Below are positions 14,646-39,484 of a DNA stretch of 64,000 nt, piece by piece. The DNA comes from Leisingera thetidis (lineage in GTDB: Bacteria; Pseudomonadota; Alphaproteobacteria; Rhodobacterales; Rhodobacteraceae), in contig NZ_CP109787.1 in NCBI RefSeq assembly GCF_025857195.1, forward strand, positions 2,545,501 through 2,609,500, given 5' to 3'. The position numbers were made by a program, and so were the translations under genes. A model generated the notes under the pieces. That model was given only the letters and a program-made list of their open reading frames with translations. It ran no database searches and was not told the origin of the DNA. The first letter of the stretch is position 1; every line of letters begins with the position of its first letter.

Positions 14646-14733
14646 GAGGCGATCCAGTGCGGATTTGCTGTTTTCTTCCAGCCTGCTTTCTATATCACTG
14701 GGCGCAGCAGTAAAACGGCTTTGGGAGAACCAC

Positions 14734-19387: not shown

Positions 19388-19388
19388 G

Positions 19389-20144: not shown

Positions 20145-20467
20145 CAGCCGGATGAGCGGGTTTGGACTCGTCTGATCTATCTAGGCCTCCTGGCTGCCGG
20201 GCGGGACGGCGTCTGCAGCGCCTGCGGCAGGCGGCCCTTGGGTCCGGTCGGCAAAGGCGGCCTTCCAGGCACCGCGGCTGCGGCATGCACCAAGGCTAGC
20301 GTTCCTTCCCGGCATCCGCCAACTCATTCCGCCGGCATTGTTTCAACTGAAATATTTCGAAATCCGATTTCAATGGAACTGAGCCCCGCGGCCAAGTGAA
20401 ATGAGGGGGCAACGGCCGCAGTCAAAAGAATGGCCGCCATCGGACGCAAAATGACAGAGAGGAAGCC
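20145..20467. other. Divergent intergenic region between the binding-protein/kinase operon and the transporter operon
   Basis: 323 bases with no gene recognised. It must hold the promoters for both divergent operons. The only marked structure is the AT-rich cluster of TTTC/GAAA inverted repeats at 20341-20371. A purine-rich GAGAGGAAG just before 20468 is the ribosome binding site of the transport binding protein. Confidence 0.6.
20341..20371. promoter_or_regulatory. Cluster of overlapping inverted repeats, candidate operator
   Basis: In an AT-rich island there are TTTCA-AC-TGAAA (20341-20352), the perfect palindromes GAAATATTTC (20349-20358) and ATTTCGAAAT (20354-20363), and GAAATC-C-GATTTC (20359-20371). 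These form a ladder of TTTC/GAAA half-sites about 97 bases upstream of the transporter operon. The arrangement suggests binding of a dimeric regulator; its identity is unknown. Confidence 0.45.
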
Positions 20468-21439: not shown

Positions 21440-21456
21440 TCCGACCCTGAAAGCCG

Positions 21457-21486
21457 GGCCGGGCAGCTCAGGTTGCCCGGCCTTTT
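21457..21486 (+). terminator. Intra-operon terminator/attenuator after the binding-protein gene
   Basis: GGCCGGGCA (21457-21465) pairs perfectly with TGCCCGGCC (21474-21482), 8-base loop, then TTTT. It separates the binding-protein gene from the ATPase gene and probably sets their expression ratio. Confidence 0.85.
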
Positions 21487-21514
21487 ATTGCGAAACCGAA
21501 AGAACGGGTCCGGG

Positions 21515-22537: not shown

Positions 22538-22540
22538 ACC

Positions 22541-24544
22541 ATGACGACCGTGAACACCAATGCCGCCCGCTCCTCCGGCGGCGCAAGCGGGAACTCCCTG
22601 CCCTTTGCAATGGGCCTGCGCTGCTTGCATTTGGCGCTGGCCGCCGCGGCGGTGATTGCCGCCGGCTACCTCATGAACACTCTGTTTGCCTGGGCGCGGG
22701 AGTACCCGGAGTCCTGGGTCATGCCTCTGAGCAGGTATATTTCCGCTTTCTTCGACTGGCTCGGCTATGAGGCGGATTTCGGCCTGTTCACCTTCCGCGA
22801 ATTGACCCGCGCCGTTTCGCAGGTGCTGGAGTGGCCTCTTGCCTTCACCGAAGGCCTGCTGGTTTCCGGTTTCGGCGGCGTGCCGCTGCTGCCGCTGCCC
22901 TGGGTGACGGTCACGCTGATCTTCTCGACTGCCGGGCTGCTTCTTGGCGGCCGGCGGCTGGCTGCAATCCTGCTTGGGTGCTTCGCCTTTCTGGCGGTCT
23001 TCGGCGTCTGGGAACCCGCGATGGACTCGTTTTCGCTGGTGCTGGTCATTGTCCCGTTTGCCGCGCTGCTGGGCATCGCCGCGGGCGTTGTGCTGGCCGG
23101 GGCGCCGCGGCTGGAGCGGGTGCTCTCGCCGGTGCTGGATGTGATGCAGAGCACGCCGCATTTCGCCTACCTGGCCCCGATTGTCGTGCTGTTCGGGTTC
23201 GGTCAGGTGCCTGCGCTGATTGCCACCGTGATCTTTGCCGCCCCGCCGATGATCCGCTGCACGCTGGTCGGTCTGCGGTCGGTGTCGCCGGAGCTGATCG
23301 AATGCGGCCGGATGGCCGGCTGCACCAAGTGGCAGCTTCTTGCCAAGGTGCGTTTCCCCGCCGCCGCCGCAACGCTGCTGCTGGGCCTGAACCAGGTCAT
23401 CATGCAGACCCTGGCAATGGTGGTGATTGCCTCCCTTATCGGGGCGTCCGGTCTGGGCCACAACCTGCTGATTGCACTGAATTCCCTGAAGCTCGGCACC
23501 GCTCTGGAACTTGGGGTTGCCATTGTCGTGCTGGCCGTCGCGCTGGACCGGCTCAGCCTGGCGGCCTCACGCTATGATCCCTATAAGCGCGGCGAACAGA
23601 CACGCCGCCGCGGCATCCTTCTTCTTGCCGTTGGCCTGTGCGCCGCAACGGCTGCCGCCGCGCCCTTTGCCGAGGGCCTGCACCGTTATCCGGCGGCCTA
23701 TGCAGTTACATCCGCACCGTTCTGGGATGCTGTCGTCATCTATGTTTCGGATGAATGGTATGACGGGCTGCAGGCGTTCAAGAATGTCCTGCTGAGCTAT
23801 GTTCTCATCCCCAGCCGCAATGCGCTGCTCTGGCTGCCCTGGCCCGTTGTCATCGCCCTTGTTGGCCTGACCGGATACCGCGTCGGAGGCCGGAAACTGG
23901 CTGCAACGGTTGCCGCGCTGGCTGCCTTCCCGCTGGTCACCGGGTTCTGGGTGCCAACCATGATCACGCTTTACATGATCGCCATGGCGGTGGCTGTCAG
24001 CATCGTGATCGGCCTGACGGTGGGCCTGCTCGCCTCGCGCAGCGAACGGCTGTCGGGTTTCATCCTGCTGATCTGCGACACGCTGCAGACCTTCCCGTCC
24101 TTTGTCTACCTCATCCCCGTTGTCATGCTGTTCAAGGTGGGTGACGTGGCGGCCATCACCGCGGTCATCGCCTATGCCACGGTGCCGATGATCCGCTACA
24201 CCAACCTTGGCCTGCGGCGGGTGTCGGCCCAGACCAAGGAAGCGGCCGAGGCAATCGGCTGCACCAGGCGGCAACTGCTGTGGAAGGTCGAGCTGCCGCT
24301 GGCGCTGCCGGAAATCATGCTGGGGATCAACCAGACCATCATGATGGGCCTGTTCATGGTCGCGATTGCCGCGCTGGTCGGAACCAAGGACCTGGGCCAG
24401 CAGATCGCCCGGGCGCTGTCGGATGGCGACACCGGGCGCGGGCTGATCGCAGGGCTGTGCATTGCCAGCCTTGGCATCATCGCCGACCGGATCCTGCGCA
24501 CCTGGAGCCGCAAGCGCAGCGAAGCGCTTGGCCTCACCGGCTGA
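22541..24544 (+). CDS. Betaine-type ABC transporter permease with two tandem permease domains
   Basis: A 667-residue membrane protein, about twice the length of ProW/OpuAB. Two BPD_transp_1 domains are evident, each with its own EAA-like loop: ELIECGRMAGCTKWQL (about residue 250) and EAAEAIGCTRRQLLWKV (about residue 565). Each half is preceded by several hydrophobic helices. A central stretch (about 375-410) looks periplasmic. A single polypeptide carrying both permease halves would pair with an ATPase dimer. ATG lies three bases after the ATPase stop, so the genes are coupled. Similar double permeases occur for betaine importers in Rhodobacteraceae as far as I know. Confidence 0.9.
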   Translation: MTTVNTNAARSSGGASGNSLPFAMGLRCLHLALAAAAVIAAGYLMNTLFAWAREYPESWVMPLSRYISAFFDWLGYEADFGLFTFRELTRAVSQVLEWPLAFTEGLLVSGFGGVPLLPLPWVTVTLIFSTAGLLLGGRRLAAILLGCFAFLAVFGVWEPAMDSFSLVLVIVPFAALLGIAAGVVLAGAPRLERVLSPVLDVMQSTPHFAYLAPIVVLFGFGQVPALIATVIFAAPPMIRCTLVGLRSVSPELIECGRMAGCTKWQLLAKVRFPAAAATLLLGLNQVIMQTLAMVVIASLIGASGLGHNLLIALNSLKLGTALELGVAIVVLAVALDRLSLAASRYDPYKRGEQTRRRGILLLAVGLCAATAAAAPFAEGLHRYPAAYAVTSAPFWDAVVIYVSDEWYDGLQAFKNVLLSYVLIPSRNALLWLPWPVVIALVGLTGYRVGGRKLAATVAALAAFPLVTGFWVPTMITLYMIAMAVAVSIVIGLTVGLLASRSERLSGFILLICDTLQTFPSFVYLIPVVMLFKVGDVAAITAVIAYATVPMIRYTNLGLRRVSAQTKEAAEAIGCTRRQLLWKVELPLALPEIMLGINQTIMMGLFMVAIAALVGTKDLGQQIARALSDGDTGRGLIAGLCIASLGIIADRILRTWSRKRSEALGLTG

Positions 24545-24579
24545 CGCAGCCTGCTGCACGCGAATTACGGAGCTGAATC

Positions 24580-26946
24580 ATGGGCCTACCCACAGTGAAC
24601 ACAAGCCGGTGGAACCACCTTGTCGAACCGGGGGTCTCTCTCTGGCAGCAGGGGATCGAACGCGACGAGGTCGCCTCCAGGTCGCTTTCGGCCTGCCGGG
24701 TCTTTGCGGGCGATACGCTGCACGTCGTGGCAATCGAGGGCGGACAGCTCTGCGATCTTCTTTTCCTGACCCCGGACGGGCGCCGGGATCCTCATGGCAT
24801 CAAGGAGATCGAAGGGCAGTCCGGGGCCGCGGTTTTTGAGCAGGGCACGGGCACGCAGCATTACAGCGCCGGGGCGCTTGCCTGGCTGCGCAGTTTCATC
24901 AAGCGCAGGCAATTCGATCCGGCGGGACAGGCGGTGCTGCGGCTGTTCGAGACCCAGCCGCATCCCGGGGCGCGCCACAGCTTTTCCATTGCCGAAGACG
25001 GTCATTGCCTGTTCGCGGCGCCAAGCCCGGCCATGACAGTTGAAGGAGACCATGCGCCGGCCCGTCTGGAAGTTCTGATCAGGCGGGCCAATCCGGAAAC
25101 ATCCCTGCTGCGCAAACTGCCGGAGCCGCTGGCCGATCCGCTGCAGGACATCCATGTTCCCCACTCCTCTGCCGTCAGCTATGAAGTCAAAGTCGGCGAA
25201 TTCATCCAGATCATCGACGTCTCAGGCCGGCAATGCTCCGACTTCCAGGCGCTGACGCTGCGGGGGCTGGACCGGGGGCGCGCGCTGGACATTCACCACA
25301 CCACGACCCGCTCGCTGATGGGGGCAGCCTACCCCGCACCGGGGCTGCACTCCAAATTCTTCAATGTGGACCAGGAGCCGATGTTCGAGGTCATCCGCGA
25401 CACGGTCGGGCGGCACGATACGTTCGGCCTTGCCTGTTTCGCGCGGTTCTATGAAGAGATGGGCTATCCGGGCCATGTCAACTGCACCGACAATATCAAC
25501 GCAAGGCTCGCCGCCTATGACGTCGCGCCGCGGGCCGGTTGGGAGGCGGTGAACTTCTTCTTCAACTCCCGGACCGAGCATGACAATGCGCTGTCGTTCG
25601 ACGAGGCCTGGTCGCGGCCCGGCGACTATGTGCTGCTGCGCGCGCTGACCGATTGCGTCTGCCTGTCCACCTCCTGCCCGAACGACCTTGATCCGGCGAA
25701 CGGGTGGAACCCGACCGACATCCATGTCCGCACCTACAGCGGCACTGAACTCTTCTCCAAATCCGTGGCGGTAAGAATGACACCCGAAGCCAAACCAGAC
25801 CTGACACGCCAGTCGCCCTTTCATAGCCGGACCTCTGTCCTGACAGGGGATTACAGCGATTTCGGAGGTGTCTGGCTGCCGGCCAGCTACCGGAACCACG
25901 GCACCATCGGCGAATACCATGCCTGCCGCGAGAGGGTTGTCATGATGGATCTCTCCTCCCTGCGGAAGTTCGAGGTCACGGGGCCGGATGCGGAAGACCT
26001 GATGAACCTGGCGGTGACCCGCGATGTCCGCAGACTGTCGGCGGGGGAAGTTGTCTATACCGCAATGTGCCACGATACCGGCGGCATGATCGATGACGGA
26101 ACCCTGTTCCGGATGGGCGACGATCTGTTCCGCTGGGTCTGCGCCGAGGATTATTGCGGGGTCCGGCTGCGCGAGCTTGCCGCAAGAGAAAACTTCAAGG
26201 CCTGGGTGAAACCGTCGGCCGGGCAGCTGGCCAATCTGGCGGTCCAGGGCCCGTTCAGCCGCAGGACGCTGGAGAAGATCATCTGGACACGGGATTGCGA
26301 GACCCCGTTGGCGGAACTGGGATGTTTCCGGTTCTCGATCGCCCGCCTGCATGGGTTTGACGGCGTCCCGCTGGTGGTGTCGCGCACCGGCTATACCGGC
26401 GAGCTGGGCTATGAGGTGTTTTGCCATCACGCAGACGCCCCGGCCGTGTGGGATGCCATTGCCGAGGCCGGGGCGGAGTTCGGCATTGCGCCGTTTGGCA
26501 CCGATGCCTTGCAGATGGTGCGGATCGAGGCCGGACTTGTGATGGGCCATCATGAGTTCGATGACACGGTCGACCCGTTTGAGGCGGGCATCGGCTTCAC
26601 GGTTCCCCTTAAGTCCAAAACCGATGATTTTGCCGGAAAGCCGGCGTTGCAGCGCCGCAAGGAGCAGGGCCGTTTCCAGCTGGCCGGGCTGGAACTGGAC
26701 GGCAATGAGCTGGCCGGCCACGGTGATCCGCTCTTCTCGGGGCGCGCGCAGATCGGGGTGGTGACCAGCTGCACGCGCTCGCCGGTCCTGAAGAAGACCA
26801 TCGCGCTGTGCCGGATCGAAAAGGACTGCGCGGCTGCGGGCAGCTGTGTTGAGATCGGCAAGCTTGATGGGCACCAGAAGCGACTCAAGGCGCGCATTGT
26901 GCCAGTGCCGTTCTATGATCCCGGAAGAACGCGGGTGCGGTCATGA
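24580..26946 (+). CDS. Fusion of two DUF1989-like segments with a GcvT-type aminomethyltransferase domain
   Basis: A 788-residue protein. Residues about 195-400 are a clear DUF1989 domain: VGEFIQIIDVSGRQCSDFQA, HDTFGLACFARFYEE, NCTDNINARL, STSCPNDLDPANGWNPTDI. Residues about 40-165 look like a second, diverged copy (AGDTLHVVAIEGGQLCDLLF aligns with the first motif). Residues about 435-785 are a GcvT fold with VMMDLSSLRKFEVTGPDAE, SRTGYTGELGYEVF and MVRIEAGL. DUF1989 relatives CgdA/CgdB form carboxyguanidine deiminase, and GcvT domains transfer one-carbon groups to tetrahydrofolate. The gene is last in the importer operon (GGAG before ATG), so it likely acts on the imported compound. The reaction is unknown. 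Confidence 0.85.
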   Translation: MGLPTVNTSRWNHLVEPGVSLWQQGIERDEVASRSLSACRVFAGDTLHVVAIEGGQLCDLLFLTPDGRRDPHGIKEIEGQSGAAVFEQGTGTQHYSAGALAWLRSFIKRRQFDPAGQAVLRLFETQPHPGARHSFSIAEDGHCLFAAPSPAMTVEGDHAPARLEVLIRRANPETSLLRKLPEPLADPLQDIHVPHSSAVSYEVKVGEFIQIIDVSGRQCSDFQALTLRGLDRGRALDIHHTTTRSLMGAAYPAPGLHSKFFNVDQEPMFEVIRDTVGRHDTFGLACFARFYEEMGYPGHVNCTDNINARLAAYDVAPRAGWEAVNFFFNSRTEHDNALSFDEAWSRPGDYVLLRALTDCVCLSTSCPNDLDPANGWNPTDIHVRTYSGTELFSKSVAVRMTPEAKPDLTRQSPFHSRTSVLTGDYSDFGGVWLPASYRNHGTIGEYHACRERVVMMDLSSLRKFEVTGPDAEDLMNLAVTRDVRRLSAGEVVYTAMCHDTGGMIDDGTLFRMGDDLFRWVCAEDYCGVRLRELAARENFKAWVKPSAGQLANLAVQGPFSRRTLEKIIWTRDCETPLAELGCFRFSIARLHGFDGVPLVVSRTGYTGELGYEVFCHHADAPAVWDAIAEAGAEFGIAPFGTDALQMVRIEAGLVMGHHEFDDTVDPFEAGIGFTVPLKSKTDDFAGKPALQRRKEQGRFQLAGLELDGNELAGHGDPLFSGRAQIGVVTSCTRSPVLKKTIALCRIEKDCAAAGSCVEIGKLDGHQKRLKARIVPVPFYDPGRTRVRS

Positions 26947-27005
26947 CAGCGGGCAGCTGTTGCCAGCGGGAGGGAAGTCTACAATAATCGCTAGGCTTCC
27001 AATAT

Positions 27006-27761
27006 GTGAGTTCGATGGCGCCTGACCCGAAAACGATCCTGATAGTTGACGATGACCCCGGCATTTGCGGGCTGCTGAGCGACTATCTCGGAGACCAGGG
27101 GTTCCGGGTCCGGTCGTTTCCGACCTGTGCGGGCGCCCGCGGCTTTCTGCGCGAGGATGAAACGGACCTGCTGGTGCTTGACCTGAAACTGCCCGATGAA
27201 AACGGGCTGGTCTTTCTGCAGAAGTTCCGCAGGACCACCGAGACGCCCGTCATCATGCTCACCGGTGCCAGTGACGAAGCGGACCGGATTGTCGGCCTGG
27301 AACTGGGCGCCGACGACTATGTGACCAAGCCGTTCAGCCCGCGTGAACTGCTGGCACGTGTCCGCGCGGTCCTGCGCCGCGCGTCGCCTGACACAGAGCT
27401 GCGAAACACGGCCGGCGGCGGCAATCAGGAAGAGTTTTGCTTCAACGGCTGGACCCTCAAAATCATCGGCAGGAAACTGATCAGCCCCGACGGCACAGAG
27501 ACCGGCCTGTCCAACAATGAATTCAATCTTCTGCGCGCGTTGTGCCAGAACATGAACGTCCCGATGTCCCGCCAGGAGCTCATCGACTTCAGCAGGGTCA
27601 GCGGCGATGAGGTTTTCGACCGCAGCATCGATGTCCTCGTTTGCCGGCTGCGCCAGAAGATCGAACCGGATCCTGCGGTGCCGGTTGCGCTCAAGACCGT
27701 CCGCAATGTCGGATATGTGTTATGCGGCGAGCAGCTGCCGGGCGCGGCGGGACAGGTTTGA
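27006..27761 (+). CDS. OmpR-family response regulator
   Basis: A 251-residue regulator. Receiver domain: acidic pocket VDDDPG, phosphoacceptor Asp in LVLDLKLPDENG (about residue 60), Thr in MLTGASD and Lys in VTKPFSPREL. A C-terminal winged-helix domain follows (about 150-245), with DRSIDVLVCRLRQKIE and VRNVGYVL. The frame opens with GTG 27006; ATG 27015 is equally plausible and neither has a strong ribosome binding site. It lies 59 bases after the DUF1989-GcvT fusion gene and probably belongs to the same locus. The nearest kinase is the divergent hybrid kinase at 17117-19387, its likely partner by inference. Confidence 0.9.
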   Translation: MSSMAPDPKTILIVDDDPGICGLLSDYLGDQGFRVRSFPTCAGARGFLREDETDLLVLDLKLPDENGLVFLQKFRRTTETPVIMLTGASDEADRIVGLELGADDYVTKPFSPRELLARVRAVLRRASPDTELRNTAGGGNQEEFCFNGWTLKIIGRKLISPDGTETGLSNNEFNLLRALCQNMNVPMSRQELIDFSRVSGDEVFDRSIDVLVCRLRQKIEPDPAVPVALKTVRNVGYVLCGEQLPGAAGQV

Positions 27762-29120: not shown

Positions 29121-31550
29121 ATGAAGTCGCATGCAAAAGTGGTGGTCGTCGGCGGCGGCTGTGTCGGGGCCTCGATACTTTACGGCCTGACCCAGCACGG
29201 CTGCAGCGATGCGGTGATGCTGGAGCGCACCACGCTGACCTCGGGCTCCACCTGGCACGCGGCGGGCCTGCTGGTGACTTTTGTGCGCTCGCACAATATC
29301 TCGAAGATGACGATGGAAACCATCCGCATCTACGGCGAGGTGGAGAAGAAGCTGGGCACATCCGTCGGGCTGCGCCAGGTCGGCCAGCTGCGGGTGGCCA
29401 ACACCGAAAAGCGCTGGGACGAGTTCCAGTCCTATATCTCCATCGCCGAGGCCTCAGGCGTGCCCTGCCGCTTGGTGACACCGGAGGAGATCAAGGAGAT
29501 CCACCCGCTGCTGGCGCAGAACGAAAACATCCGCGGCGGCATCCTGCATGACCAGGACGGCTATGTGAACCCGGCCGACATCACCATGGGGCTGGCCAAG
29601 CTGGCGCGCGATCAGGGCGCCACCGTCTATCAGAACACCGAAGCGCAGGGGTATGAGAAGCTGGACAACGGCCACTGGAAGGTGACCACCAGCAAGGGCG
29701 ATATCACCTGCGAGCATCTGATCTTTGCCACCGGCAACTATGCCCGCGAGAACGCCCGCCGGGTGGGGCTGGATCTGCCCTGCATTCCGATCGTGCACCA
29801 GTATTGGACCACCGAAACCGTGCCGCTGCTGAAGGAGCGCCGCGCCGAAGGCCTGCCGGAGTTCCCGATCCTGCGGGATGAGGATTACGGCGCCTATCTG
29901 CGCGAGGATGTCGGCGGCTTCCAGTTCGGCCCCTATGAGTTCGAAAAGGACCTCAAGCTGTTTGCCGAGGACAAGGTGCCCGCAGATTTCGGCGCCGACC
30001 TGCTGCCCGAGGATTTCGAGGCGGTGGAAACCCAGTGGGAGCGCGCGCTGGAGCGGGTGCCTGCCTTAGGCGAAGTGGGCATCAAGGCCAACACCCGCGG
30101 CCCCTTCCAGATGACCCCGGACGAGCTGCCCTTGTGCGGTCCGGCGCCGGGGCATGACAATCTGTGGCTGGCCGAGGGCGTGCCCGGCGGCATCCTGTGG
30201 GGCGGCACCATGGGCGAGCGACTGGCGCGCTGGATTGTTGACGGCCATCCCGGCATCGACATGTCCGAAATCGACCCGCGCCGGTTTGGCGATTATGCCT
30301 CCAAGCGCTGGACCATGGACAAGGTGCGCGAGACCTGGGGCACCCATATGGACGCCCATGTTCCGGGCGAGGATCTTCCGGGGGCCCGGCCGATGAAGAC
30401 CATGCCGTCTTATGACCTGCTGACAGCACAGGGCGCCGTCTGGACCACCTTCAACGGCTACGAGTTCCCGCGCTGGTTTGCCAGATCGCCGGAGGAGGCG
30501 ATCCCCGAGCACAGTTTCCGCCGCACTGATCACATGGAGCTGGTGCAGGAAGAGGTGCGGGTGACGCGCGAGGAAGCGGGCTTCATCGAGATGTCGCCGA
30601 TGACCAAGTTCACCGTGCGCGGCCCCGGCGCCGCCAAATGGCTGGACGGGATCATGGCCAACAAGCTGCCCAAGGCTGGCCGCATGACCCTCGCCGTGGC
30701 GCTGAACCCGCAGGGCGGCATGGAGGGCGAATACACCATCGTCCGCTATGGCGAAAACGACTTCTACCTGGTCTCGACCCCGAACGGACAGGTCTACAAC
30801 TGGGATTATCTGTCGCGCCTCATGCCGGATGACGGTTCGGTGGTAATGGAGGATATCTCGGAACAGCTGGGGGTGATTGCCCTAGCCGGTCCGAAGTCCC
30901 GCGGGATCCTGCAGCAGCTGACCGACAATGACCTGTCGAACGAGGCCTTCCCCTGGCTCAGCGCGCAGATGGGCGAGGTCGGCTATGCCAAGGGCGTCCA
31001 CCTCTTGCGCGTCAGCTACACAGGCGAGCTGGGCTGGGAGCTGCATCACCCCGTCGGCTACAACCGGCATCTGGTTGATCTGCTGCTGAAGGCCGGGGTC
31101 AAACCCTTTGGCCTGGAGGCGCTGGAATCGATGCGGCTGGAGAAATCCTACCGCGCGATCAACCGCGAGATCTGCAAGGACATGACCCCCTTCGAGGCCG
31201 GTCTGGACCGTTTTGTGGCACTGGAGGGGCGGCAGTTCATCGGCCGCGACGCGCTGCTGAGGCAGAAGGAAGCGGGCGGCTACAGCACGCTGGTCACCCT
31301 GAAGCTGCCGTTCGGCGATACCTCGGTGCTGGCGGATGAGGGCGTCTACAAGGACGGGGCACTCATCGGGCGGGTCACCTCGGGCGGGTTCTCCTACTAC
31401 TGCAACCACGACATCGCAATGGCGCTGGTGCCGCAGGAATACACCGCCGAAGGCACGTCCATGCAGGTGATGGTCCACAACGAAATGCGCGACGCCGAGG
31501 TGATCGGCATCTGCGCCGTCGATCCAACCAGCGCACGCGCCCGGGCCTGA
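29121..31550 (+). CDS. FAD-dependent dehydrogenase with GcvT domain, dimethylglycine/sarcosine dehydrogenase family (module 1)
   Basis: An 809-residue two-part enzyme. N-terminal FAD domain: VVVVGGGCVGASILYG (residues about 7-22) and SGSTWHAAGL with His46, the residue that carries covalent FAD in this family. C-terminal GcvT domains: FIEMSPMTKFTVRGPGA (about residue 492), VSYTGELGWELHHP, and SMRLEKSYRAI. Such enzymes oxidise an N-methyl group and pass formaldehyde to tetrahydrofolate in the second domain. CAGGAG sits eight bases before the ATG at 29121. It heads an operon with an MttB-like methyltransferase and two more redox enzymes, and diverges from a GcvA-like regulator. Exact N-methyl substrate unknown. 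Confidence 0.92.
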   Translation: MKSHAKVVVVGGGCVGASILYGLTQHGCSDAVMLERTTLTSGSTWHAAGLLVTFVRSHNISKMTMETIRIYGEVEKKLGTSVGLRQVGQLRVANTEKRWDEFQSYISIAEASGVPCRLVTPEEIKEIHPLLAQNENIRGGILHDQDGYVNPADITMGLAKLARDQGATVYQNTEAQGYEKLDNGHWKVTTSKGDITCEHLIFATGNYARENARRVGLDLPCIPIVHQYWTTETVPLLKERRAEGLPEFPILRDEDYGAYLREDVGGFQFGPYEFEKDLKLFAEDKVPADFGADLLPEDFEAVETQWERALERVPALGEVGIKANTRGPFQMTPDELPLCGPAPGHDNLWLAEGVPGGILWGGTMGERLARWIVDGHPGIDMSEIDPRRFGDYASKRWTMDKVRETWGTHMDAHVPGEDLPGARPMKTMPSYDLLTAQGAVWTTFNGYEFPRWFARSPEEAIPEHSFRRTDHMELVQEEVRVTREEAGFIEMSPMTKFTVRGPGAAKWLDGIMANKLPKAGRMTLAVALNPQGGMEGEYTIVRYGENDFYLVSTPNGQVYNWDYLSRLMPDDGSVVMEDISEQLGVIALAGPKSRGILQQLTDNDLSNEAFPWLSAQMGEVGYAKGVHLLRVSYTGELGWELHHPVGYNRHLVDLLLKAGVKPFGLEALESMRLEKSYRAINREICKDMTPFEAGLDRFVALEGRQFIGRDALLRQKEAGGYSTLVTLKLPFGDTSVLADEGVYKDGALIGRVTSGGFSYYCNHDIAMALVPQEYTAEGTSMQVMVHNEMRDAEVIGICAVDPTSARARA

Positions 31551-31576
31551 TCCCGGCCGCCCCTTAGGAGCTGAAC

Positions 31577-33103
31577 ATGACGGAACTGAAAACACGGGCG
31601 CCGCGCGGCGCCCGGGGCGGACGGGCTGCGCGCGTCAAGGCCCGCACCAACCCGGCCCCGGTCTACCTGCCCGCGCTGAACCGCCAGGTCGGCCCCATTG
31701 ACCTGCTGGGCCCGGAAGGGGTGGACAGGATCCACAATGCGGCGATGACGATCCTGGAAACCACCGGCATCGAATTCCGCGATCCGGTCGCCCTGGCCGG
31801 CTGGAAACGCGCGGGCGCCGATGTGCGGGGCGCGCGGGTCCGCATTGGCCGCGACATGCTGATGGAGCTGATCTCCTCGGTGCCGTCGGAATGGGCCTAT
31901 GCCGCGCGCAACCCGGAGCGCTCGCTGCGGGTGGGCAACCGGCATTCGGTCTTTGCCAACGCCTATGGCGCGCCGTTCGTCTATGACCTGGAGGGCAAGC
32001 GGCGCCCCTCGAGGCTGGAAGATGCGCATAACTTCTTCAAGATGAGCCAGATGAGCCAGTCGATGATGGTTCCGGGCATCCTGCCGGTGGAGCCGCAGGA
32101 CGTGCCGGTGCCGCAGCGCCATCTGGAGCTGGTGCATGCGGCGCTGACGCTGACCGACAAGCCGGTCAAGGGGGCGGTGCAGTCGGAACAGGCGGCGCGC
32201 GACACGGTGGAGATGGTGCGCATCGTCTTTGGCGGGGAATTTGTCGACAGCAACGTGGTGCTGGCGGCGCTCCTGAACTGCAACACGCCGCTGGTCTGGG
32301 ACGAAACCATGCTGCAGTCCTTGCGGGTCTATGCGGCTGCCAACCAGCCCTGCCTGCTGTCGCCCTTTGTCCTTGCCGGCGCCTCGGCCCCGGCCAGCCC
32401 GCAGGGCGGCGTGGCGCTGCTGATCGCGGAAAGCCTGGCAGGCATGGCCTACAGCCAGATCATCCGCCGCGGCGCGCCGATGGTGCTGGGGGTGGCGATC
32501 ATGGGGGTGTCGATGAAGACCGGCGCGCCGATGATGGGCTCGCCCGAGCCGGGGCTGATGAACCTGCTGGTGGGTCAGATGGCCCGGTTCTACGGCGTGC
32601 CGTGGCGCACCTGCACCATGTGGACCGGGTCGAAATCGCCGGACATGCAGGCCGGTTTCGACACCGCCAATACCATGTGGCCGGTGCTCTTGGGCGGCGC
32701 CAATTACATCGTGCACTCGGCCGGCTTTCTGGAAGGGGCGCTGGGGGTCAGTTACTCAAAATGGGTGCAGGACACCCTGCAGCTGGAGAACTTCCACCGC
32801 TTCTTTTCAGGCCTTCAAGAGGAAAACCTGGACGCGCTGCTGGCAGATATCGAGGCCATTGGCCCTGGCGGCCATTTCCTGGGCACCGATCACACCCGCG
32901 AGAACCCGATGCACATGAACCCGCTGCAGAACAACGACAGTTTCGAGCAATGGGAAGCGGAAGGCGCCAAGACCGCGGACCTGGTGGGCCGCGAGGAGGC
33001 CCGGCGGATGCTGGACACCTACGTGCAGCCGCCGATGCCGGATGATCAGCGCGGCGCGCTGGATGAATTTGTTGCCAAGAAGCGCGCGTTGCACCAAGCC
33101 TGA
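31577..33103 (+). CDS. MttB-superfamily (trimethylamine methyltransferase-like) protein, module 1
   Basis: A 508-residue protein of the trimethylamine methyltransferase family, a TIM-barrel enzyme that moves a methyl group from a quaternary or tertiary amine to a corrinoid protein. Motifs include GVDRIHNAAMTILETTGIEF, CNTPLVWDETML, MWTGSKSPDMQAGFDTA and LGTDHTRENPM. The frame is continuous with no in-frame TAG, so it is a non-pyrrolysine member, as in glycine betaine methyltransferase MtgB and proline betaine methyltransferase MtpB. The extreme N-terminus is basic. TAGGAG precedes the ATG. No corrinoid protein gene is nearby, which leaves the methyl acceptor open. Confidence 0.9.
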   Translation: MTELKTRAPRGARGGRAARVKARTNPAPVYLPALNRQVGPIDLLGPEGVDRIHNAAMTILETTGIEFRDPVALAGWKRAGADVRGARVRIGRDMLMELISSVPSEWAYAARNPERSLRVGNRHSVFANAYGAPFVYDLEGKRRPSRLEDAHNFFKMSQMSQSMMVPGILPVEPQDVPVPQRHLELVHAALTLTDKPVKGAVQSEQAARDTVEMVRIVFGGEFVDSNVVLAALLNCNTPLVWDETMLQSLRVYAAANQPCLLSPFVLAGASAPASPQGGVALLIAESLAGMAYSQIIRRGAPMVLGVAIMGVSMKTGAPMMGSPEPGLMNLLVGQMARFYGVPWRTCTMWTGSKSPDMQAGFDTANTMWPVLLGGANYIVHSAGFLEGALGVSYSKWVQDTLQLENFHRFFSGLQEENLDALLADIEAIGPGGHFLGTDHTRENPMHMNPLQNNDSFEQWEAEGAKTADLVGREEARRMLDTYVQPPMPDDQRGALDEFVAKKRALHQA

Positions 33104-33109
33104 CACTGC

Positions 33110-33129
33110 GGGCGCCACGGCGCCCTTTT
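33110..33129 (+). terminator. Terminator or attenuator between the MttB-like and Ldh-like genes
   Basis: GGGCGCC (33110-33116) pairs with GGCGCCC (33119-33125) and is followed by TTTT. It begins seven bases after the MttB-like stop and 30 bases before the next start, so it may lower expression of the two distal genes. The two-base loop means the closing pairs would open in practice. Confidence 0.65.
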
Positions 33130-33158
33130 GACCCGACACAAGGACAGGATCCGAGCCG

Positions 33159-34181
33159 ATGACCACACGTTCGACAAAACCGCTCTCACTCGCCGAAGTG
33201 CGGGATTTGGCAAAATCCGTCCTTGTGACCGCGGGCATGGATGACCGGGGCAGCGATGTCATCGCCGATATCGTCACCCGGTCCGAACGCGACGGCCCGC
33301 GCAGCCACGGGCTGCGGATGCTGCCGGTCTATGCGCAAAGCTTCACCTCCGGCTATGCCAATGGCGCCGCGGCGCCCTCGGTCGAAAAGATCGCGCCGGG
33401 CGTGCTGCGCGGTGACGGCGACAATGGCTATTACCAGATTGCGGCCGCCGCCGCGCGGGATGAACTCATTGCCCTGGCGCGTGAGAACGGCATTGCCGCC
33501 TTTACCTGCGCCAATTGCCACCACCTGGGCGGGCTGCGGTTTGACACCGAGCCGCTGGCCGAGGCCGGGCTGGTGGCGCTGGCGGTGATCAACTCGCTGT
33601 CGATGGTGGTGCCGCAGGGCGGCGTGCGCCCGGTGTTCGGCACCAACCCGATGTCCTTTGCCTGCCCGCGCGAGGGCGCGGCACCTGTGGTCTGGGACCA
33701 GGCGGCCTCGATGGTGGCGCTGATGGATATCCGCATGGCCGCCGCCGAGGGCCACGAGCTGCCCCGGGCTGCCGGGCTGGATCCGGACGGCAACCCCAGC
33801 ACCGACCCCGAGGCGATCCTGGAAACCCGCAGCCTGCTGCCGTTCGGCGAGCACAAGGGCGCGGCGATTGCCTTCATGATCGAGGTGCTGGGCGCGGCGC
33901 TGGCGGGCGGCACGCTGTCGGTCGACAACCAGGAGCGCGAGTCCTTTGGCGCGCTCAACATCAAGGGCGGCGCCACCCTGATCGCGATTGACCCGAGCCG
34001 CTTTGGCAATGCGGCTTTTGGCGGCTACATCACCCGCATCTGCGCCGAGATCGAGGGCAATGGCGCCGCCCGCGTTCCGGGTGACGGACGGCTGAAGAAA
34101 CGCGCGGCAGCGGAAGCCGAGGGTGTCGCGGTCAGCACTGAGCTTCTAGCCCAGCTCGATGCGCTGGCGGCGCCCGCGTGA
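33159..34181 (+). CDS. Ldh-family NAD(P)-dependent oxidoreductase (malate/ureidoglycolate/pyrroline-2-carboxylate reductase type)
   Basis: A 340-residue protein of the type 2 malate/L-lactate dehydrogenase family, not the Rossmann kind. Conserved segments are SERDGPRSHGLRMLP, the catalytic His region CANCHHLGGLR, VFGTNPMSFA and GEHKGAAIAFMIEVLG. Family members include ureidoglycolate and sulfolactate dehydrogenases and the reductases of cyclic imino acids (delta1-pyrroline-2-carboxylate and delta1-piperideine-2-carboxylate) and of N-methyl imino acids. The overlapping D-amino-acid-dehydrogenase-like gene suggests the imino-acid group. AAGGACAGG lies upstream of the ATG. The stop overlaps the next gene by GTGA. 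Confidence 0.87.
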   Translation: MTTRSTKPLSLAEVRDLAKSVLVTAGMDDRGSDVIADIVTRSERDGPRSHGLRMLPVYAQSFTSGYANGAAAPSVEKIAPGVLRGDGDNGYYQIAAAAARDELIALARENGIAAFTCANCHHLGGLRFDTEPLAEAGLVALAVINSLSMVVPQGGVRPVFGTNPMSFACPREGAAPVVWDQAASMVALMDIRMAAAEGHELPRAAGLDPDGNPSTDPEAILETRSLLPFGEHKGAAIAFMIEVLGAALAGGTLSVDNQERESFGALNIKGGATLIAIDPSRFGNAAFGGYITRICAEIEGNGAARVPGDGRLKKRAAAEAEGVAVSTELLAQLDALAAPA

Positions 34182-35416
34182 AACGGGTGGTGATTGCCGG
34201 CGGCGGCGTTGCCGGCATTTCCTGCGCGCTGGCGCTGCAGGCGGATGGCCACAGCGTCACCGTGCTGGAGCCTGGCCCGGCTGGCGAGGGCGCAAGCTGG
34301 GCGTCCTGCGGCTGCATCGCGGTGGGGGAGATCGTGCCGCTGTCGCAGCCGGGCCTGCTGATGAAGGTGCCGGGCTGGCTGCTGGACCCGGAGGCGCCGC
34401 TGTCGCTGCGGCCCGCCAGCGTGCCGGGGCTGCTGCCCTGGCTTGCCCGTTTCACCGCCAATGCGCGGCCGTCGCGGATGCGGGCGATTGCCGCCGACCT
34501 GGCCCGGCTGACCTTTGCCGCCACCGCGGATGTCAGGGCGCAGCTGGCGGATGCCGGCGCCCCGGAGCTGCTGGTGGAGCGGCCGGTGATCAAGCTGTTC
34601 GACGGCGAACGCGACAAGGCCACCATGGGCGCGGCCTTTGGCCTGGCGCGGGAGCTGGGCTGCACCATCGACGAAATCAGCGGCCGGGAGGCGCAGGAGA
34701 TGGAGCCCGCCATCGCCGCCGGCTTCAAATATGCCGCGGTGCTGCGGGACTGGAGCTTTGTGGCCGATCCCAAGCGGCTGGTGGAAACGCTGCTGCAGGT
34801 GTTTGCGCAGCGCGGCGGCACGGTGCTGCCGCTGGCCTGCGCGGGGTTCGAGCGCGACGGCGCGCGGGTCACGGCCGTCCGGGCGGCGGACGGGCGGCGG
34901 CTGGCCGCCGACGAGGTGGTGATCGCGGCAGGCAGCCAGTCCAGGGGGCTGGCCCGGCAGCTGGGCATCCGGCTGCAGCTGGAAGGGCTGATGGGCTATT
35001 CGACCGGTCTGCAGGATGCCGGGGTGGAATTGAAGCACACGGTTTTCTACCCGGCGGGCGGCTTCGGCATCACGCCTTACGAGCGGGAACTGGCGGTGGC
35101 CGGCACGGTGGAATTTGCCGGTCTTGCCGCCGCGCCGGACTGGCGCCGGGCGGATGTGCTGGTCAATCGCGCCCGCCGGGTGCTGCCGGGGCTGCAGGCC
35201 GGCACGCGCAGACGGCGCATGGGGCGCCGCCCGTTCACCCCCGACACCCGCCCGATCATCGGCAGAACGTCGAAACTGGCCAATGTCTCCTTCGCCACCG
35301 GCCACGGCCAGCTGGGGCTGACGCTTGCCGCCACCACCGGGCGCCTGGTCGCAGATGCCATAGCAGGGCGGCGGCCGGACCAGGACATCGGAGCCTTCAG
35401 TCCGGACAGGTTTTAG
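34178..35416 (+). CDS. FAD-dependent oxidoreductase of the DAO family, D-amino-acid dehydrogenase-like
   Basis: A 412-residue flavoprotein. The dinucleotide-binding fold is VVIAGGGVAGISCALAL followed by the acidic strand end VTVLEPG; ASWASCGCIAVGEI replaces the covalent-FAD histidine motif of the dimethylglycine group, so this is a different subfamily. C-terminal TRPIIGRTSKLANVSFATGHGQLGLT is typical of DadA-like enzymes. It would oxidise an amino or imino acid and feed electrons to the membrane or a partner. The GTG start overlaps the Ldh-like stop, so the two enzymes are made together; oxidation to a cyclic imine followed by reduction to the L-amino acid is an attractive inference. Confidence 0.87.
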   Translation: MKRVVIAGGGVAGISCALALQADGHSVTVLEPGPAGEGASWASCGCIAVGEIVPLSQPGLLMKVPGWLLDPEAPLSLRPASVPGLLPWLARFTANARPSRMRAIAADLARLTFAATADVRAQLADAGAPELLVERPVIKLFDGERDKATMGAAFGLARELGCTIDEISGREAQEMEPAIAAGFKYAAVLRDWSFVADPKRLVETLLQVFAQRGGTVLPLACAGFERDGARVTAVRAADGRRLAADEVVIAAGSQSRGLARQLGIRLQLEGLMGYSTGLQDAGVELKHTVFYPAGGFGITPYERELAVAGTVEFAGLAAAPDWRRADVLVNRARRVLPGLQAGTRRRRMGRRPFTPDTRPIIGRTSKLANVSFATGHGQLGLTLAATTGRLVADAIAGRRPDQDIGAFSPDRF

Positions 35417-35498
35417 GGCCGCCCCGGATCCCCCTCACCGGCGGACCAGGCAGCGCGCAGAGTTTTCACCGCGCGCCTGTTCCGGGAGCTGCGCCGGT

Positions 35499-37907
35499 TC
35501 ATGCCTTCTGGCGTTCGTTGGCGGGGTCCCAAACCGGGGCGTCAAGCAGGGTAAAGGCCTTGCGTTCGCCCAGGATAACCACCTCCAGCCCTGCGGCAGC
35601 CGCCGGATCGACATAGGCGAAGCCGAGGCTCTTGCCTGTGGCATGGCCGTAGCCGCCCGAGGTGCAGACACCCACCACCCTGTCCCCTTGCATCACCGGC
35701 TCGCCGCCGTAGATGTCGCAATCGGTTGCGGCGGCCTCGCCATAGACCAATTTGGCGGCGATGCCCTGCTGTCGGACCGTTTCAGTTGCCGCACGGCCTT
35801 GAAACTCTCCTTTTTCCGGGGCGTAAAAGCGGGTGCTGCCGGCCTCGATCAGGGTGATTTCGTTGGTCAGTTCCGTGTTCATGCCGTGATAGGCCTTTTC
35901 CATGCGCAGGCTGTTCACCGCATGGACGCCGAAATCGGAAATGCCGTGCGGTTCGCCAGCCTCCCGGACGGCAGCGTAGAGTTCCGCCAGCCGGGTCATC
36001 GGCGCGTGCAGTTCCCAGCCCAGTTCGCCCACATAGTTCACGCGCAGGGCGCGCAGGGCGACGCCCGCGATGGTGATCTCCTGCCCCGACAGCCAGCGGA
36101 AGGAGGGCGTGGAAAGATCCGCCCCGGTCAGGGGCTGCAGCACGTCGCGCGCCTTGGGGCCGGCCACCACCAGGATGCCGAAATCATCGGTCACATTGGT
36201 CACTGTCACGCCGTTTCCGGCAACGCTGAGATGATCGCGCGCCTGCAGTTCGGCGCCCGCGCCGGTCAGCACATAGAAGCGGTCATCGGCGAGACGGGTA
36301 ATGGTCCATTCACCGATGATCCGGCCATTGCCGGACAGGACATGGGTCAGGGTGATACCGCCCTGTTTCTTCGGCAGCTTGTTGGCTGTCAGACGGTCCA
36401 GCAGCGCTTCCGCTTCCGGCCCGGTCACGTCGAATTTGGCAAAGCTCGACAGGTCGCAGATGCCCACGCGCTCGCGCACCGCCCGGCATTCCCCGGCCAC
36501 GATGGCGAAGGTATTGTTGCGCCGGAACTGCAGGTCTTCGGCAAAGCCCTCGGGCGCGAAATACTTCGGGCGCTCCCAGCCGAAGACCTGGGAATAAACC
36601 GCGCCCCTGGCCTTGAGCGGCTCATAGAGCGGCGTCGTGCGCACCTTGCGGCCGGCGGCGGCCTCGCGGCCCGGCAGCGGAGTCACGAACATCTCGTGAT
36701 AATCCTCGAAGCTCTTGGCGCGGGTGTAGGCCTGATCGGCAAAACCGCCGAAGCGGCGCGGATCGACGCAGGCCATGTTGATCTCGCTGTCGCCGTGCAC
36801 CATCCATTGCGCCAGGTATTTGCCGACGCCCGCGCCCTGCGCGATGCCGATGGACGAGCCGCAGCACTGCCAGAAATTGCGCAGCCCAGGCGCGGGCCCG
36901 GCCAGCGGATTGCCATCAGGCGTGTGCGGAATTGCGCCGTTGATGATGCGCTTGATCCCGGCCTCGGCAAAGATCGGCATCCGCTCGAAGGCCTGTTCCA
37001 GCCAGGGCGCGATCCGGTCGATATCGCCTTCGAACAGTTCGTTCTCGCTGTCCCATTCGGGGCAGCCGCCGCGATGGTCCCAGGCTTCCCTGGCGCCGTA
37101 GTGCTCATAGATGCCGACCAGGCCGGATTTCTGCTCCTGACGGTAATATCCGGCGGTGGCCGGGTCGCGCATCACCGGCAGTTCGCCATCCCAGGTCTTG
37201 AACGCGTCCAGCGCCTCGGTCACCAGGTAGTGGTGCTCCATATTGGTGATCGGCGTATCCAGCCCGACCCACAGGCCGACCTCGCGGGCGTAGCAGCCCC
37301 CGGCATTGACCACATGTTCGCAGGTGATGCTGCCGTGTTCGGTCACCACTTCCCATTCGCCCGAAGGCAACTGGCTGATACCCGTCACCCGGTTGCGGCG
37401 GATGATCGTGGCGCCCATCTGCCGCGCGCCGGCAGCCATGGCGTTGCAGGCGCTCGACGGATCCACATGGCCGTCCATATTGGTCCAGGCCCCGGCCAGA
37501 ATGCCGTCTGTTTCGAGCCAGGGGTTCAGCTCCTTGATCCGGTCGGGGCCGATGACCTCCATGTGGAAGCCGACATTGGCCGAGAACCCGGCGACGTAAT
37601 TGAACCAGTCCACCTCTTGCTGCGTGGTGGCCAGCCGGATGCCGCCGCAGCCATGCCAGCCGGCGGGCTGGCCGGTGATCTCCTCCAGCCGCGGGTAGAG
37701 CGTGTTGGAATAGTGGTGGATCTTGGCCATGTTGTAATTGCCGATGAAGCTGGGGCACTGGCCTGCCGCGTGCCAGGTCGAGCCGGAGGTCAGCTCTCCC
37801 TTTTCGATCAGCACCACGTCTTTCCAGCCCTCTTCGGCGAGGTGATAGGCGAGGCCCACCCCCATCATGCCGCCGCCGACGATCACCACTTTTGCATGAG
37901 ACTGCAT
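35499..37907 (-). CDS. FAD-dependent dehydrogenase with GcvT domain, dimethylglycine/sarcosine dehydrogenase family (module 2)
   Basis: An 802-residue paralogue of the enzyme at 29121. It opens VVIVGGGMMGVGLAYHLAE and has the covalent-FAD motif SGSTWHAAGQ (His46). The middle has the aromatic CGGIRLATTQQEVDW. The C-terminal GcvT half has VGICDLSSFAKFDVTGPEAE, VNYVGELGWELHAP, SLRMEKAYHGM and TSGGYGHATGKSLG. Expected chemistry is N-demethylation with transfer of formaldehyde to tetrahydrofolate. Only 23 bases separate it from the upstream MttB-like gene, so the pair is one operon. AAAGGA precedes ATG 37907. It is convergent with module 1. Confidence 0.92.
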   Translation of the reverse strand: MQSHAKVVIVGGGMMGVGLAYHLAEEGWKDVVLIEKGELTSGSTWHAAGQCPSFIGNYNMAKIHHYSNTLYPRLEEITGQPAGWHGCGGIRLATTQQEVDWFNYVAGFSANVGFHMEVIGPDRIKELNPWLETDGILAGAWTNMDGHVDPSSACNAMAAGARQMGATIIRRNRVTGISQLPSGEWEVVTEHGSITCEHVVNAGGCYAREVGLWVGLDTPITNMEHHYLVTEALDAFKTWDGELPVMRDPATAGYYRQEQKSGLVGIYEHYGAREAWDHRGGCPEWDSENELFEGDIDRIAPWLEQAFERMPIFAEAGIKRIINGAIPHTPDGNPLAGPAPGLRNFWQCCGSSIGIAQGAGVGKYLAQWMVHGDSEINMACVDPRRFGGFADQAYTRAKSFEDYHEMFVTPLPGREAAAGRKVRTTPLYEPLKARGAVYSQVFGWERPKYFAPEGFAEDLQFRRNNTFAIVAGECRAVRERVGICDLSSFAKFDVTGPEAEALLDRLTANKLPKKQGGITLTHVLSGNGRIIGEWTITRLADDRFYVLTGAGAELQARDHLSVAGNGVTVTNVTDDFGILVVAGPKARDVLQPLTGADLSTPSFRWLSGQEITIAGVALRALRVNYVGELGWELHAPMTRLAELYAAVREAGEPHGISDFGVHAVNSLRMEKAYHGMNTELTNEITLIEAGSTRFYAPEKGEFQGRAATETVRQQGIAAKLVYGEAAATDCDIYGGEPVMQGDRVVGVCTSGGYGHATGKSLGFAYVDPAAAAGLEVVILGERKAFTLLDAPVWDPANERQKA

Positions 37908-37930
37908 GACGGAATCCTTTCCTGCTTGGC

Positions 37931-39484
37931 TCACCAGACGCCGTTGCCGCCGGACATCCGGCCGCGGGGCAGAATGATGTTGAAATTCTCGCGCAGCTGC
38001 CGGTCCAGGGCTTCGGGGATGTGGCGGGGGTAGTGGTCCGCCAGGATCGTTTGCACCTTGTCCCGCGCCACTTCGCGCGCGTCGCGGGCGCCGGCGTCCT
38101 CCCATTCGCTGATGCTGCGGCGGTCGGCGATCTCCGGGTAAAGGTAGTCGGTCTTCATCCGGTTGAATGTCTGCGGGTGGCCAAGGTAATGGCCTTCGCC
38201 CAGCACAACGCCGCGGATCACGTCGAAACTGAGCGTGTCCTCGCTGACTTCGACACCCCTGACCGTGCGCAGGATGGCGCCGATCAGATCGTTGTCCAGC
38301 ACGTAGCTCTCAAAGCTGGTGCCCATCAGGCTGCCCTGCATGCCCGCGCATTCGTGAATCATCGAGGCCCCGGCATGGGCGGCGAGCGAAATGGTGTAGC
38401 CCTTCTCTCCGCCCGCCTGCATGTCCGGCAGCTTGCTGTCGGTCATCCCCGCAGGGACCGAATTCGGCAGGTCGTAGAAACCGGCCATCTGCGCGCAGGC
38501 GGCAGACAGCAGCGCCTGCTCGCCCGACCCGCCCGACATCGCGCCGGTGCGCAGGTCGCTGACAAAGGGCCAGGTGGCAAAGATGCCCCGGCAGTCCGGG
38601 TCGATGATGTTGCACAAAATCAATCCGGCCAGAACCTCGGCACAGGCCTGCGCCACGGCCCCGGCCAGGGCGGCAGGCGCGGTTGCCCCGGCCTGGCCCG
38701 CAGCCACGAGCAGGATCGGCATTCCCGCCTCCACCGCCGCCTCCAGCGCGTCGCAGCTTTCGGTCGCAAAGCGCATCGGCGGCACCACGTGGCAGCAGAC
38801 GGCAGTGCAGAAGGGACGTTCGCGGAACTTGCCGTCGCCGCCCGCCACCGCGTCCAGCATCGGCATCACTGCGCGGACACTGGCGCTGTCGGTATAGCTG
38901 ACGGCGATGGATTTCGCGGTGCCCGACAGGCAGGCGTAGGTGGTGTTGATATCCAGATCGAGGATCGTATGCGCATCCCGCGCCACGACCGAGCGGTGAT
39001 ACCAGTGGATATTGTCCATCCGGTCCACCAGCCGCGCGATATCATAAAGGTCGGCGACGGTGCTTTCGCGGTACTTGCCGCTGTGGAAATCCATAATCGT
39101 CGGCGCCGCGCCGCCGGTGCCCGCATGCACGCGCTTGCCGCCGATTTCGATGTCATGCGCCGGGTCGATGCCGTGCAGGGTGAACTTGCGCCTCGTGCGG
39201 GCAATCACATCCTCGACCAATGCGCGCGGAAAGCGCAGGCGGCCCGCATCGTCCACCCGGCAGCCCGCCGCGACGGCGCGCGCCTCAAGGCTGGGAGTGA
39301 CCTGGCTGAGACCCAGATCCGCCAGAAGCCGCAGCACCAGCTCGTGGATCCGCTCCATCTCTGACTGGCTGAGGGGCCGGTACCGCCCGCCAACCATTCC
39401 CGGGCTGACAGGGGATGCCGCGGGGGCGGCTTCGGGCTTGGCGCGGCCCCGGCGGTTCGGTTTTCGAATGGCGGTTGCAGGCAT
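37931..39484 (-). CDS. MttB-superfamily (trimethylamine methyltransferase-like) protein, module 2
   Basis: A 517-residue TIM-barrel methyltransferase of the same superfamily as the gene at 31577 but clearly diverged from it. Motifs: MERIHELVLRLLADLGL, HAGTGGAAPTIMD, CNIIDPDCRGIFA, GMTDSKLPDMQAGGEKG and LGEGHYLGHPQTFNRMKTD. No in-frame TAG, so no pyrrolysine. GAGG lies six bases before the ATG. It is followed at once by a GcvT-fused dehydrogenase, giving the same enzyme pairing as module 1, in the reverse gene order. The methyl donor is presumably a betaine or other quaternary amine; no corrinoid partner is present. Confidence 0.9.
   Translation of the reverse strand: MPATAIRKPNRRGRAKPEAAPAASPVSPGMVGGRYRPLSQSEMERIHELVLRLLADLGLSQVTPSLEARAVAAGCRVDDAGRLRFPRALVEDVIARTRRKFTLHGIDPAHDIEIGGKRVHAGTGGAAPTIMDFHSGKYRESTVADLYDIARLVDRMDNIHWYHRSVVARDAHTILDLDINTTYACLSGTAKSIAVSYTDSASVRAVMPMLDAVAGGDGKFRERPFCTAVCCHVVPPMRFATESCDALEAAVEAGMPILLVAAGQAGATAPAALAGAVAQACAEVLAGLILCNIIDPDCRGIFATWPFVSDLRTGAMSGGSGEQALLSAACAQMAGFYDLPNSVPAGMTDSKLPDMQAGGEKGYTISLAAHAGASMIHECAGMQGSLMGTSFESYVLDNDLIGAILRTVRGVEVSEDTLSFDVIRGVVLGEGHYLGHPQTFNRMKTDYLYPEIADRRSISEWEDAGARDAREVARDKVQTILADHYPRHIPEALDRQLRENFNIILPRGRMSGGNGVW

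Follow-up and report, generated by a model that had tools for sequence, protein, structure and literature searches.

Where do MttB-family methyltransferases deliver their methyl groups when no corrinoid protein is encoded beside them, and from which compounds are these methyl groups taken? The question is raised by a 64,000-nucleotide stretch of the Leisingera thetidis genome (contig NZ_CP109787.1, positions 2,545,501 to 2,609,500; from now on referred to as the window), which holds two pyrrolysine-free MttB-family genes (MttB1 and MttB2), each next to a gene for a flavin adenine dinucleotide (FAD) dehydrogenase fused to a GcvT folate domain (DG1 and DG2). We consider it fairly probable that both MttB proteins are front ends of a cobalamin hub and that module 1, the gene set containing MttB1, degrades proline betaine or hydroxyproline betaine. 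Algal osmolytes, most likely including proline betaine, are the probable source of the methyl groups removed by the two gene sets.

The observed basis of this reading consists of gene content, synteny, family membership, phylogeny and co-occurrence. MttB1 (31577-33103, plus strand, 508 aa) and MttB2 (37931-39484, minus strand, 517 aa) are both encoded by continuous open reading frames and match PF06253 over their full length at 557.9 and 404.1 bits, respectively (cut-off 25). In an alignment including PDB sequences, MttB1 has W and MttB2 has M at the position equivalent to pyrrolysine 334 of Methanosarcina MttB. As already recognized in a first-pass annotation of this DNA, each of the two genes adjoins one DAO + FAO_M + GCV_T + GCV_T_C protein, and the two modules are separately regulated. 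Each has its own LysR gene (PF00126/PF03466; 27997-28890 and 39576-40622, both on the minus strand). Both modules are real and functional-looking. Module 1 is larger than the gene pair originally described: divergent from its LysR gene, whose product is GcvA-like (202 bits against the NCBIfam GcvA-type model, under the cut-off of 288), lie DG1 (29121-31550), MttB1, an Ldh_2-family oxidoreductase (33159-34181) and a DadA-like FAD D-amino-acid dehydrogenase (34178-35416), all head to tail on the plus strand with gaps of 26, 55 and -4 bases, the DadA-like gene sharing 4 bases with the end of the Ldh_2 gene. The mechanically called DG1 frame begins at 28971; its likely start is at 29121, where the earlier annotation had also placed it, with AGGAG upstream. 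Module 2 is a compact cassette on the minus strand made up of LysR, located upstream of MttB2, then MttB2 and DG2 (35499-37907; mechanical frame beginning at 38105, likely start at 37907).

The genome of L. thetidis (5.47 Mb, 8 contigs, estimated 100% complete) was searched on all contigs with Pfam profiles, yielding 14 PF06253 genes, 3 PF02310 proteins and 1 RACo-type activase (PF14574). None of the PF02310 and PF14574 matches falls inside the window, in agreement with the first-pass annotation, which had proposed a whole-genome search for an MttC/MtgC-like corrinoid protein and a RamA-type activase; both were found outside it. The MtgC-like protein (232 aa) consists of a B12-binding and a B12-binding_2 domain with a DIHDIG motif and is encoded on the window's contig, about 1 Mb away. 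A DUF1638 gene adjoins it and MtgE, carrying a homocysteine S-methyltransferase domain (PF02574), follows about 2 kb further on. The RamA/RACo-type activase has an N-terminal CxxxxxCxxC motif, and a pterin-binding MtgD candidate (L067, 1429-2493) is distinct from the FolP-like gene (L066). A 320-aa gene (L067, 457-1419) ends 9 bases upstream of mtgD and has no Pfam match at E 1e-8; its position recalls that of R. pomeroyi metF2 next to mtgD. The remaining two PF02310 proteins are of the methylmalonyl-CoA mutase type, and therefore no full-length MetH was seen among the three PF02310 matches and one PF02574 match inspected in this genome. Thus, judged by Pfam domains and gene context, the MtgBCDE component set (stand-alone MtgC, MtgD, MtgE, RamA and DUF1638) is complete in the genome.

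The idea of a missing corrinoid partner is therefore rejected, since an MtgC-like protein, DUF1638, MtgE, MtgD and a RamA-type activase are encoded in the same genome, and the same genes leave the suggestion that the chemistry may differ without support. The earlier annotation had also named a corrinoid/activase operon elsewhere that fully explains what both genes do as a finding that would refute its reading: the genes are indeed present, whereas use of this particular MtgC by the two MttB proteins is plausible, with co-occurrence as its basis. Passages of PMC12478193 (2025) describe a split methionine synthase/glycine-betaine demethylase of Ruegeria pomeroyi with the same component list. According to these passages, R. 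pomeroyi mtgC and mtgD mutants are methionine auxotrophs that do not use glycine betaine even with methionine supplied, and for the additional PF06253 paralogs, of which there are up to seven, the authors propose demethylation of other compounds via the same route.

Co-occurrence of MttB and MtgC was analyzed at a match threshold of E ≤ 1e-30 in 198 genomes, with each genus of the family represented once and L. thetidis among them. MttB matches were present in 190 and MtgC matches in 185 genomes; 182 contain both, 5 neither, 8 only MttB and 3 only MtgC (Fisher p 2.7e-5). Restricting the sample to the 174 better genomes gives 163, 5, 3 and 3, respectively (p 2.4e-6). As the sampled genomes are related, these p values serve only as a guide.

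In the following scheme, the reactions, the contacts between partners and the substrate are all inferred from these observations. Each MttB would transfer the first methyl group of a quaternary ammonium compound to MtgC, from where MtgD would move it to tetrahydrofolate, or the methyl would reach homocysteine via MtgE, while RamA together with DUF1638 would re-reduce the corrinoid cofactor. The adjacent FAD/GcvT enzyme would then remove the following methyl group oxidatively, yielding methylene-tetrahydrofolate. This division of labor, MttB taking the first methyl and the FAD/GcvT enzymes passing the rest to tetrahydrofolate, had been put forward in the first-pass annotation and is plausible, resembling the R. 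pomeroyi glycine-betaine route; what finds no support is the missing partner and the different chemistry attached to it. In module 1, MttB1 as a putative proline/hydroxyproline betaine:corrinoid methyltransferase would convert proline betaine (stachydrine) or hydroxyproline betaine to N-methylproline, DG1 would demethylate N-methylproline to D-proline with transfer of the methyl to folate, the DadA-like protein would oxidize D-proline to Δ1-pyrroline-2-carboxylate and the Ldh_2 protein would reduce the latter to L-proline. HpbD, where present, would set the stereochemistry. Module 2 may follow the same scheme on another quaternary amine.

MttB1 matches PDB entry 4yyc at 423 bits and MtgB (9yce/2qne) at 301 bits. 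The best match of DG1, the proposed N-methylproline demethylase, is dimethylglycine dehydrogenase (4pab, 501.5 bits). The Ldh_2 protein (PF02615, 287.8 bits), a candidate Δ1-pyrroline-2-carboxylate reductase, is closest to Δ1-piperideine-2-carboxylate reductase (1wtj/2cwf/2cwh, 248.6 bits; next entry 126.3), and a passage of PMC4113996 has members of the malate/L-lactate dehydrogenase-2 family reduce the proline ketimine. The putative D-proline dehydrogenase (DAO, 170.3 bits) reaches 186.6 bits against the NCBIfam DadA-type model (cut-off 383), and its top PDB matches are glycine oxidases at no more than 62.5 bits.

A scan of named genomes returned 35 module 1 loci, of which L104 (36% identity) was dropped, leaving 34 orthologous loci: 33 titled as Rhodobacteraceae/Roseobacteraceae genera or unnamed Alphaproteobacteria and one Cohaesibacter. 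Flanks were read up to 10 kb, and over shorter distances in several loci. DG1 adjoins MttB1 in 33 loci, the contig of the 34th starting at MttB1, and the genes for Ldh_2 (28/34), the DadA-like protein (23/34) and the same type of LysR regulator (28/34) are found beside it. An HpbD-type gene was detected by tblastn in or near module 1 in seven loci (L073, L075, L079, L080, L086, L093 and L094). These copies are 75-97% identical to that of L080, which was compared with the PDB and has as its best solved relatives 4e8g/4izg/4j1o (607.7 bits) and 2pmq/4h2h (564 bits). The entries were deposited as mandelate racemase/muconate lactonizing enzymes; we take them to be the enzymes that racemize or epimerize (hydroxy)proline betaine in Paracoccus and Pelagibaca. 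On a tree of the 34 rows the HpbD state changes 6 times, so the linkage between HpbD and module 1 does not go back to one inherited event.

The arrangement of these genes varies. L093 shows the order DG1-MttB1-Ldh_2-HpbD, and HpbD occurs together with the DadA-like gene in L073, L075, L079 and L080. The L075 run reads DG1-MttB1-Ldh_2-DadA-BCCT transporter, followed by HpbD and a cis-3-hydroxyproline dehydratase-like protein, the gene for which is also found in L073, L079 and L080. BCCT-type transporters, scoring below their cut-offs, are present in L075, L086 and L094. A DHDPS-type gene is encoded in L087, L088 and L103, the L088 copy matching 2hmc at 530 bits, and is followed in all three by a gene for proline racemase and another DadA-like gene. 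In L099, genes for GntR, DHDPS, aldehyde dehydrogenase, a second MttB and a DAO protein follow DG1-MttB1. Altogether, 11 of the 34 loci contain a proline- or hydroxyproline-related gene (the seven with HpbD and four others with hydroxyproline-pathway genes). Members of the DAAO, DHDPS and aldehyde dehydrogenase (ALDH) families are placed in the hydroxyproline pathway in a passage of PMC4113996. Near module 1 of L078 (14062-14975), a cis-3-hydroxyproline dehydratase-like sequence is split over two frames, representing either a decayed gene or a sequencing error; it was left out of the locus counts. In a passage of PMC11306105, a dmdA mutant of Phaeobacter inhibens is described as having its lag phase shortened by stachydrine, and therefore a roseobacter responds to this compound.

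Besides the two in the window, the L. thetidis genome encodes 12 further MttB paralogs. For eight of the 14 MttB genes, one of the 24 large GcvT-bearing frames of the genome (700 aa or more) is located no further than 3 kb away, with about 0.5 expected and a binomial tail of 8e-9; for a ninth the distance is 3.7 kb. Pairing with a dehydrogenase is thus widespread in this genome rather than special to the window. Phylogenetically, MttB1 is sister to the own paralog L004, together with the second MttB of L099 (support 100/98), on the MtgB side of the tree, while MttB2 and the own paralogs L012 and L013 form a separate clade (100/100). This main tree leaves out own paralog L014 and most MttB2 relatives; a second tree includes L014 and 23 rows of the MttB2 clade. 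L014 (C1:2087900) is a very divergent MttB paralog scoring 178 bits. L004 is located on contig C2 and adjoins an HpbD orthologue (81%), accompanied by GntR, DHDPS, aldehyde dehydrogenase and two SDR genes. MttB1 and L004 may thus represent two related enzymes for cyclic betaines. How they would divide the substrates we infer from their clusters: L004 is taken to act on hydroxyproline betaine because its cluster holds hydroxyproline genes, and MttB1 on proline betaine or its D-isomer because its cluster contains the DadA-like and Ldh_2 genes, which would lead from D-proline to L-proline.

A number of observations weigh against proline or hydroxyproline betaine as the substrate of module 1 and against MtgC as the shared acceptor. 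Substrate and partner assignments are predictions drawn from gene context, phylogeny and co-occurrence. Ldh_2 and DadA aside, intact proline-specific genes are missing from the flanks read in 23 of the 34 loci, and the HpbD gene of L. thetidis itself adjoins L004 on a different contig instead of module 1. Among the HpbD loci, the DadA gene is absent from L086, L093 and L094 and Ldh_2 from L073 and L086; further, the HpbD-type and cis-3-hydroxyproline dehydratase-like proteins reach 251 and 309 bits, respectively, against an NCBIfam cut-off of 500. Module 1 could instead be the ordinary glycine-betaine pathway, with MttB1 as the organism's MtgB and DG1 as its dimethylglycine dehydrogenase. DG1 is indeed closest to dimethylglycine dehydrogenase among solved structures, MttB1 matches MtgB 9yce at the 301 bits given above, and glycine betaine is a published roseobacter substrate, as passages of PMC12478193 state. 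We nevertheless regard this as unlikely, because Ldh_2 (28/34) and the DadA-like protein (23/34) have no evident role in glycine-betaine breakdown, HpbD or hydroxyproline genes are linked to 11 of the 34 loci and other paralogs, such as L001 with the best PF06253 match, are candidates for MtgB too. A slightly smaller chance is given to another amino-acid betaine, for example alanine betaine, whose D-amino acid and keto acid would be handled by the DadA-like and Ldh_2 proteins: the NCBIfam scores of both all lie under the family cut-offs, so that other substrates are conceivable for them, while HpbD-type and hydroxyproline-pathway neighbors in several lineages speak for the cyclic betaines.

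As an alternative in the sense of the first-pass annotation, the MttB proteins could use an acceptor other than MtgC, or cobalamin-free chemistry. In its favor are the eight genomes that have an MttB but no MtgC match, all of which encode some B12-binding protein. In G136, assembled in about 120 contigs and 97% complete, 6 MttB matches stand against no MtgC match, and its one B12 protein is of mutase size, reflecting either an assembly gap or a different acceptor. The B12 proteins of G068 and G118 are encoded in shorter frames (323 and 393 aa), and MttB2 belongs to a clade separate from MtgB. Further, G119 (78% complete), which carries a close MttB2 orthologue, has a best MtgC match of only 7e-33. 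However, five of the eight exceptions are less than 90% complete and the B12 protein of G088 lies in a MetH-sized frame of 1276 aa; MttB and MtgC tend to co-occur across the family, and MtgC, MtgD, RamA and DUF1638 are all encoded in L. thetidis. We therefore hold a different acceptor to be improbable and retain MtgC as the proposed recipient of the first methyl group.

Against a model of pyrrolysine-containing MttB, MttB2 scores 350.6 and MttB1 229.9 bits (cut-off 525). Relatives of MttB2 at E ≤ 1e-100 are found in 120 of the 198 genomes, orthologues of at least 83% identity in only 3 besides its own. DG2 is encoded next to MttB2 in all three close orthologue loci and the LysR regulator in two of them (L140, L141). 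A plasmid of Roseovarius indicus (L171, 8986-14774) carries the LysR-MttB2-dehydrogenase cassette, with an MttB2 orthologue of 88.8% and a tyrosine recombinase gene on each side (one of them some 4 kb away), and is predicted to be conjugative. This suggests that module 2 is a self-contained module depending on a hub encoded elsewhere. None of the neighbors examined, including those of its approximately 50% relatives, points to a consistent substrate for MttB2. On the Ruegeria pomeroyi megaplasmid (L172, 6941-17237), the genes are arranged in the order MttB2-like, class-III aminotransferase, two FAD dehydrogenases and thiamine pyrophosphate (TPP) enzyme, and the same series up to the dehydrogenases is present in L145; these sets look like removal of several N-methyl groups followed by transamination. 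L143, L146 and L148 have a 429-aa gene at the corresponding place. Such aminotransferase- and TPP-type extra genes are absent from the window. Taurine betaine was considered as a possible substrate of this side group of MttB2 relatives, but the TPP enzyme of L147 reaches 408 bits in the sulfoacetaldehyde acetyltransferase model, which has a cut-off of 620.

Beside module 1, an operon related to trimethylamine N-oxide (TMAO) is found (17117-27761), bordered on either side by genes for a histidine kinase and a response regulator. It encodes an OpuAC binding protein, an ATPase and a fused permease, together with a protein resembling TMAO demethylase (1084.4 bits against NF053776, whose cut-off is 1100). 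Module 1 of Leisingera aquaemixtae (L100) is likewise flanked by a related transporter and a demethylase-like gene (48%). At 14380-15468 the window encodes a CAF17/YgfZ-type protein with a weak GCV_T match.

The modules extend a pathway published in 2025 and represent no new chemistry; the puzzle as originally posed is solved because the general mechanism has already been published, and the new, testable part is the substrate assignment for module 1. More broadly, the odds appear about even that roseobacters possess an aerobic cobalamin route sending the first N-methyl of proline betaine and hydroxyproline betaine via methionine synthase's corrinoid subunit, by which methyl groups of these algal osmolytes could enter methionine, with LysR-MttB-dehydrogenase cassettes acting as exchangeable, partly plasmid-borne substrate modules on one hub. 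Among the titles and abstract openings listed in searches of open-licence PubMed Central papers, none reports a cobalamin-dependent proline betaine pathway for aerobic bacteria. If the assignment is true, one of the many unassigned MttB paralogs of marine bacteria would gain a named substrate, the stachydrine lag-phase effect described in the passage of PMC11306105 on P. inhibens would be tied to knockable genes, and aerobes would have an oxygen-independent first step on proline betaine. The demand for vitamin B12 in algal osmolyte use would also be wider.

In Paracoccus and Pelagibaca, the HpbD-type breakdown of proline betaine and hydroxyproline betaine was reportedly studied by Zhao in 2013 and Kumar in 2014. 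Genes of the DAAO and DHDPS/ALDH types and for an HpbD-type epimerase/racemase also occur around some of the module 1 loci (HpbD in 7 of 34), with HpbD of L. thetidis itself standing beside L004. Aerobic N-demethylases known from the HpbD-type pathway are Rieske oxygenases, in contrast to which MttB would carry out the first step without oxygen here. Passages of PMC4113996 and PMC11337228 cite work on this type of betaine catabolism. Methanosarcina MttB (7xcl/7xcm; passages of PMC9842639) is homologous over most of its length, aligning with MttB2 at 199.9 bits; however, neither window protein has pyrrolysine. A design with one hub and many MttB proteins is found in MtpB/MtqC/MtqA/RamQ of Eubacterium limosum, with proline betaine as a substrate (passages of PMC8604678). 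By this description, pyrrolysine-free MttB-family enzymes with separate substrates likewise feed one corrinoid protein there, although E. limosum is an anaerobic acetogen and an FAD/GcvT step is not described in those passages. The closest counterpart is the MtgBCD/MtgE system of R. pomeroyi as presented in passages of PMC12478193, which by Pfam domain and context shares the PF06253 enzyme, the stand-alone PF02310 protein, DUF1638, the PF00809 pterin protein, the PF02574 protein and RamA, with no full MetH seen. Compared with this system, L. thetidis encodes 14 MttB paralogs (up to seven in the paper's passages), the MttB proteins of the window have their own FAD/GcvT partner and LysR regulator, and module 1 adds the Ldh_2 and DadA-like genes, its substrate probably being a different one.

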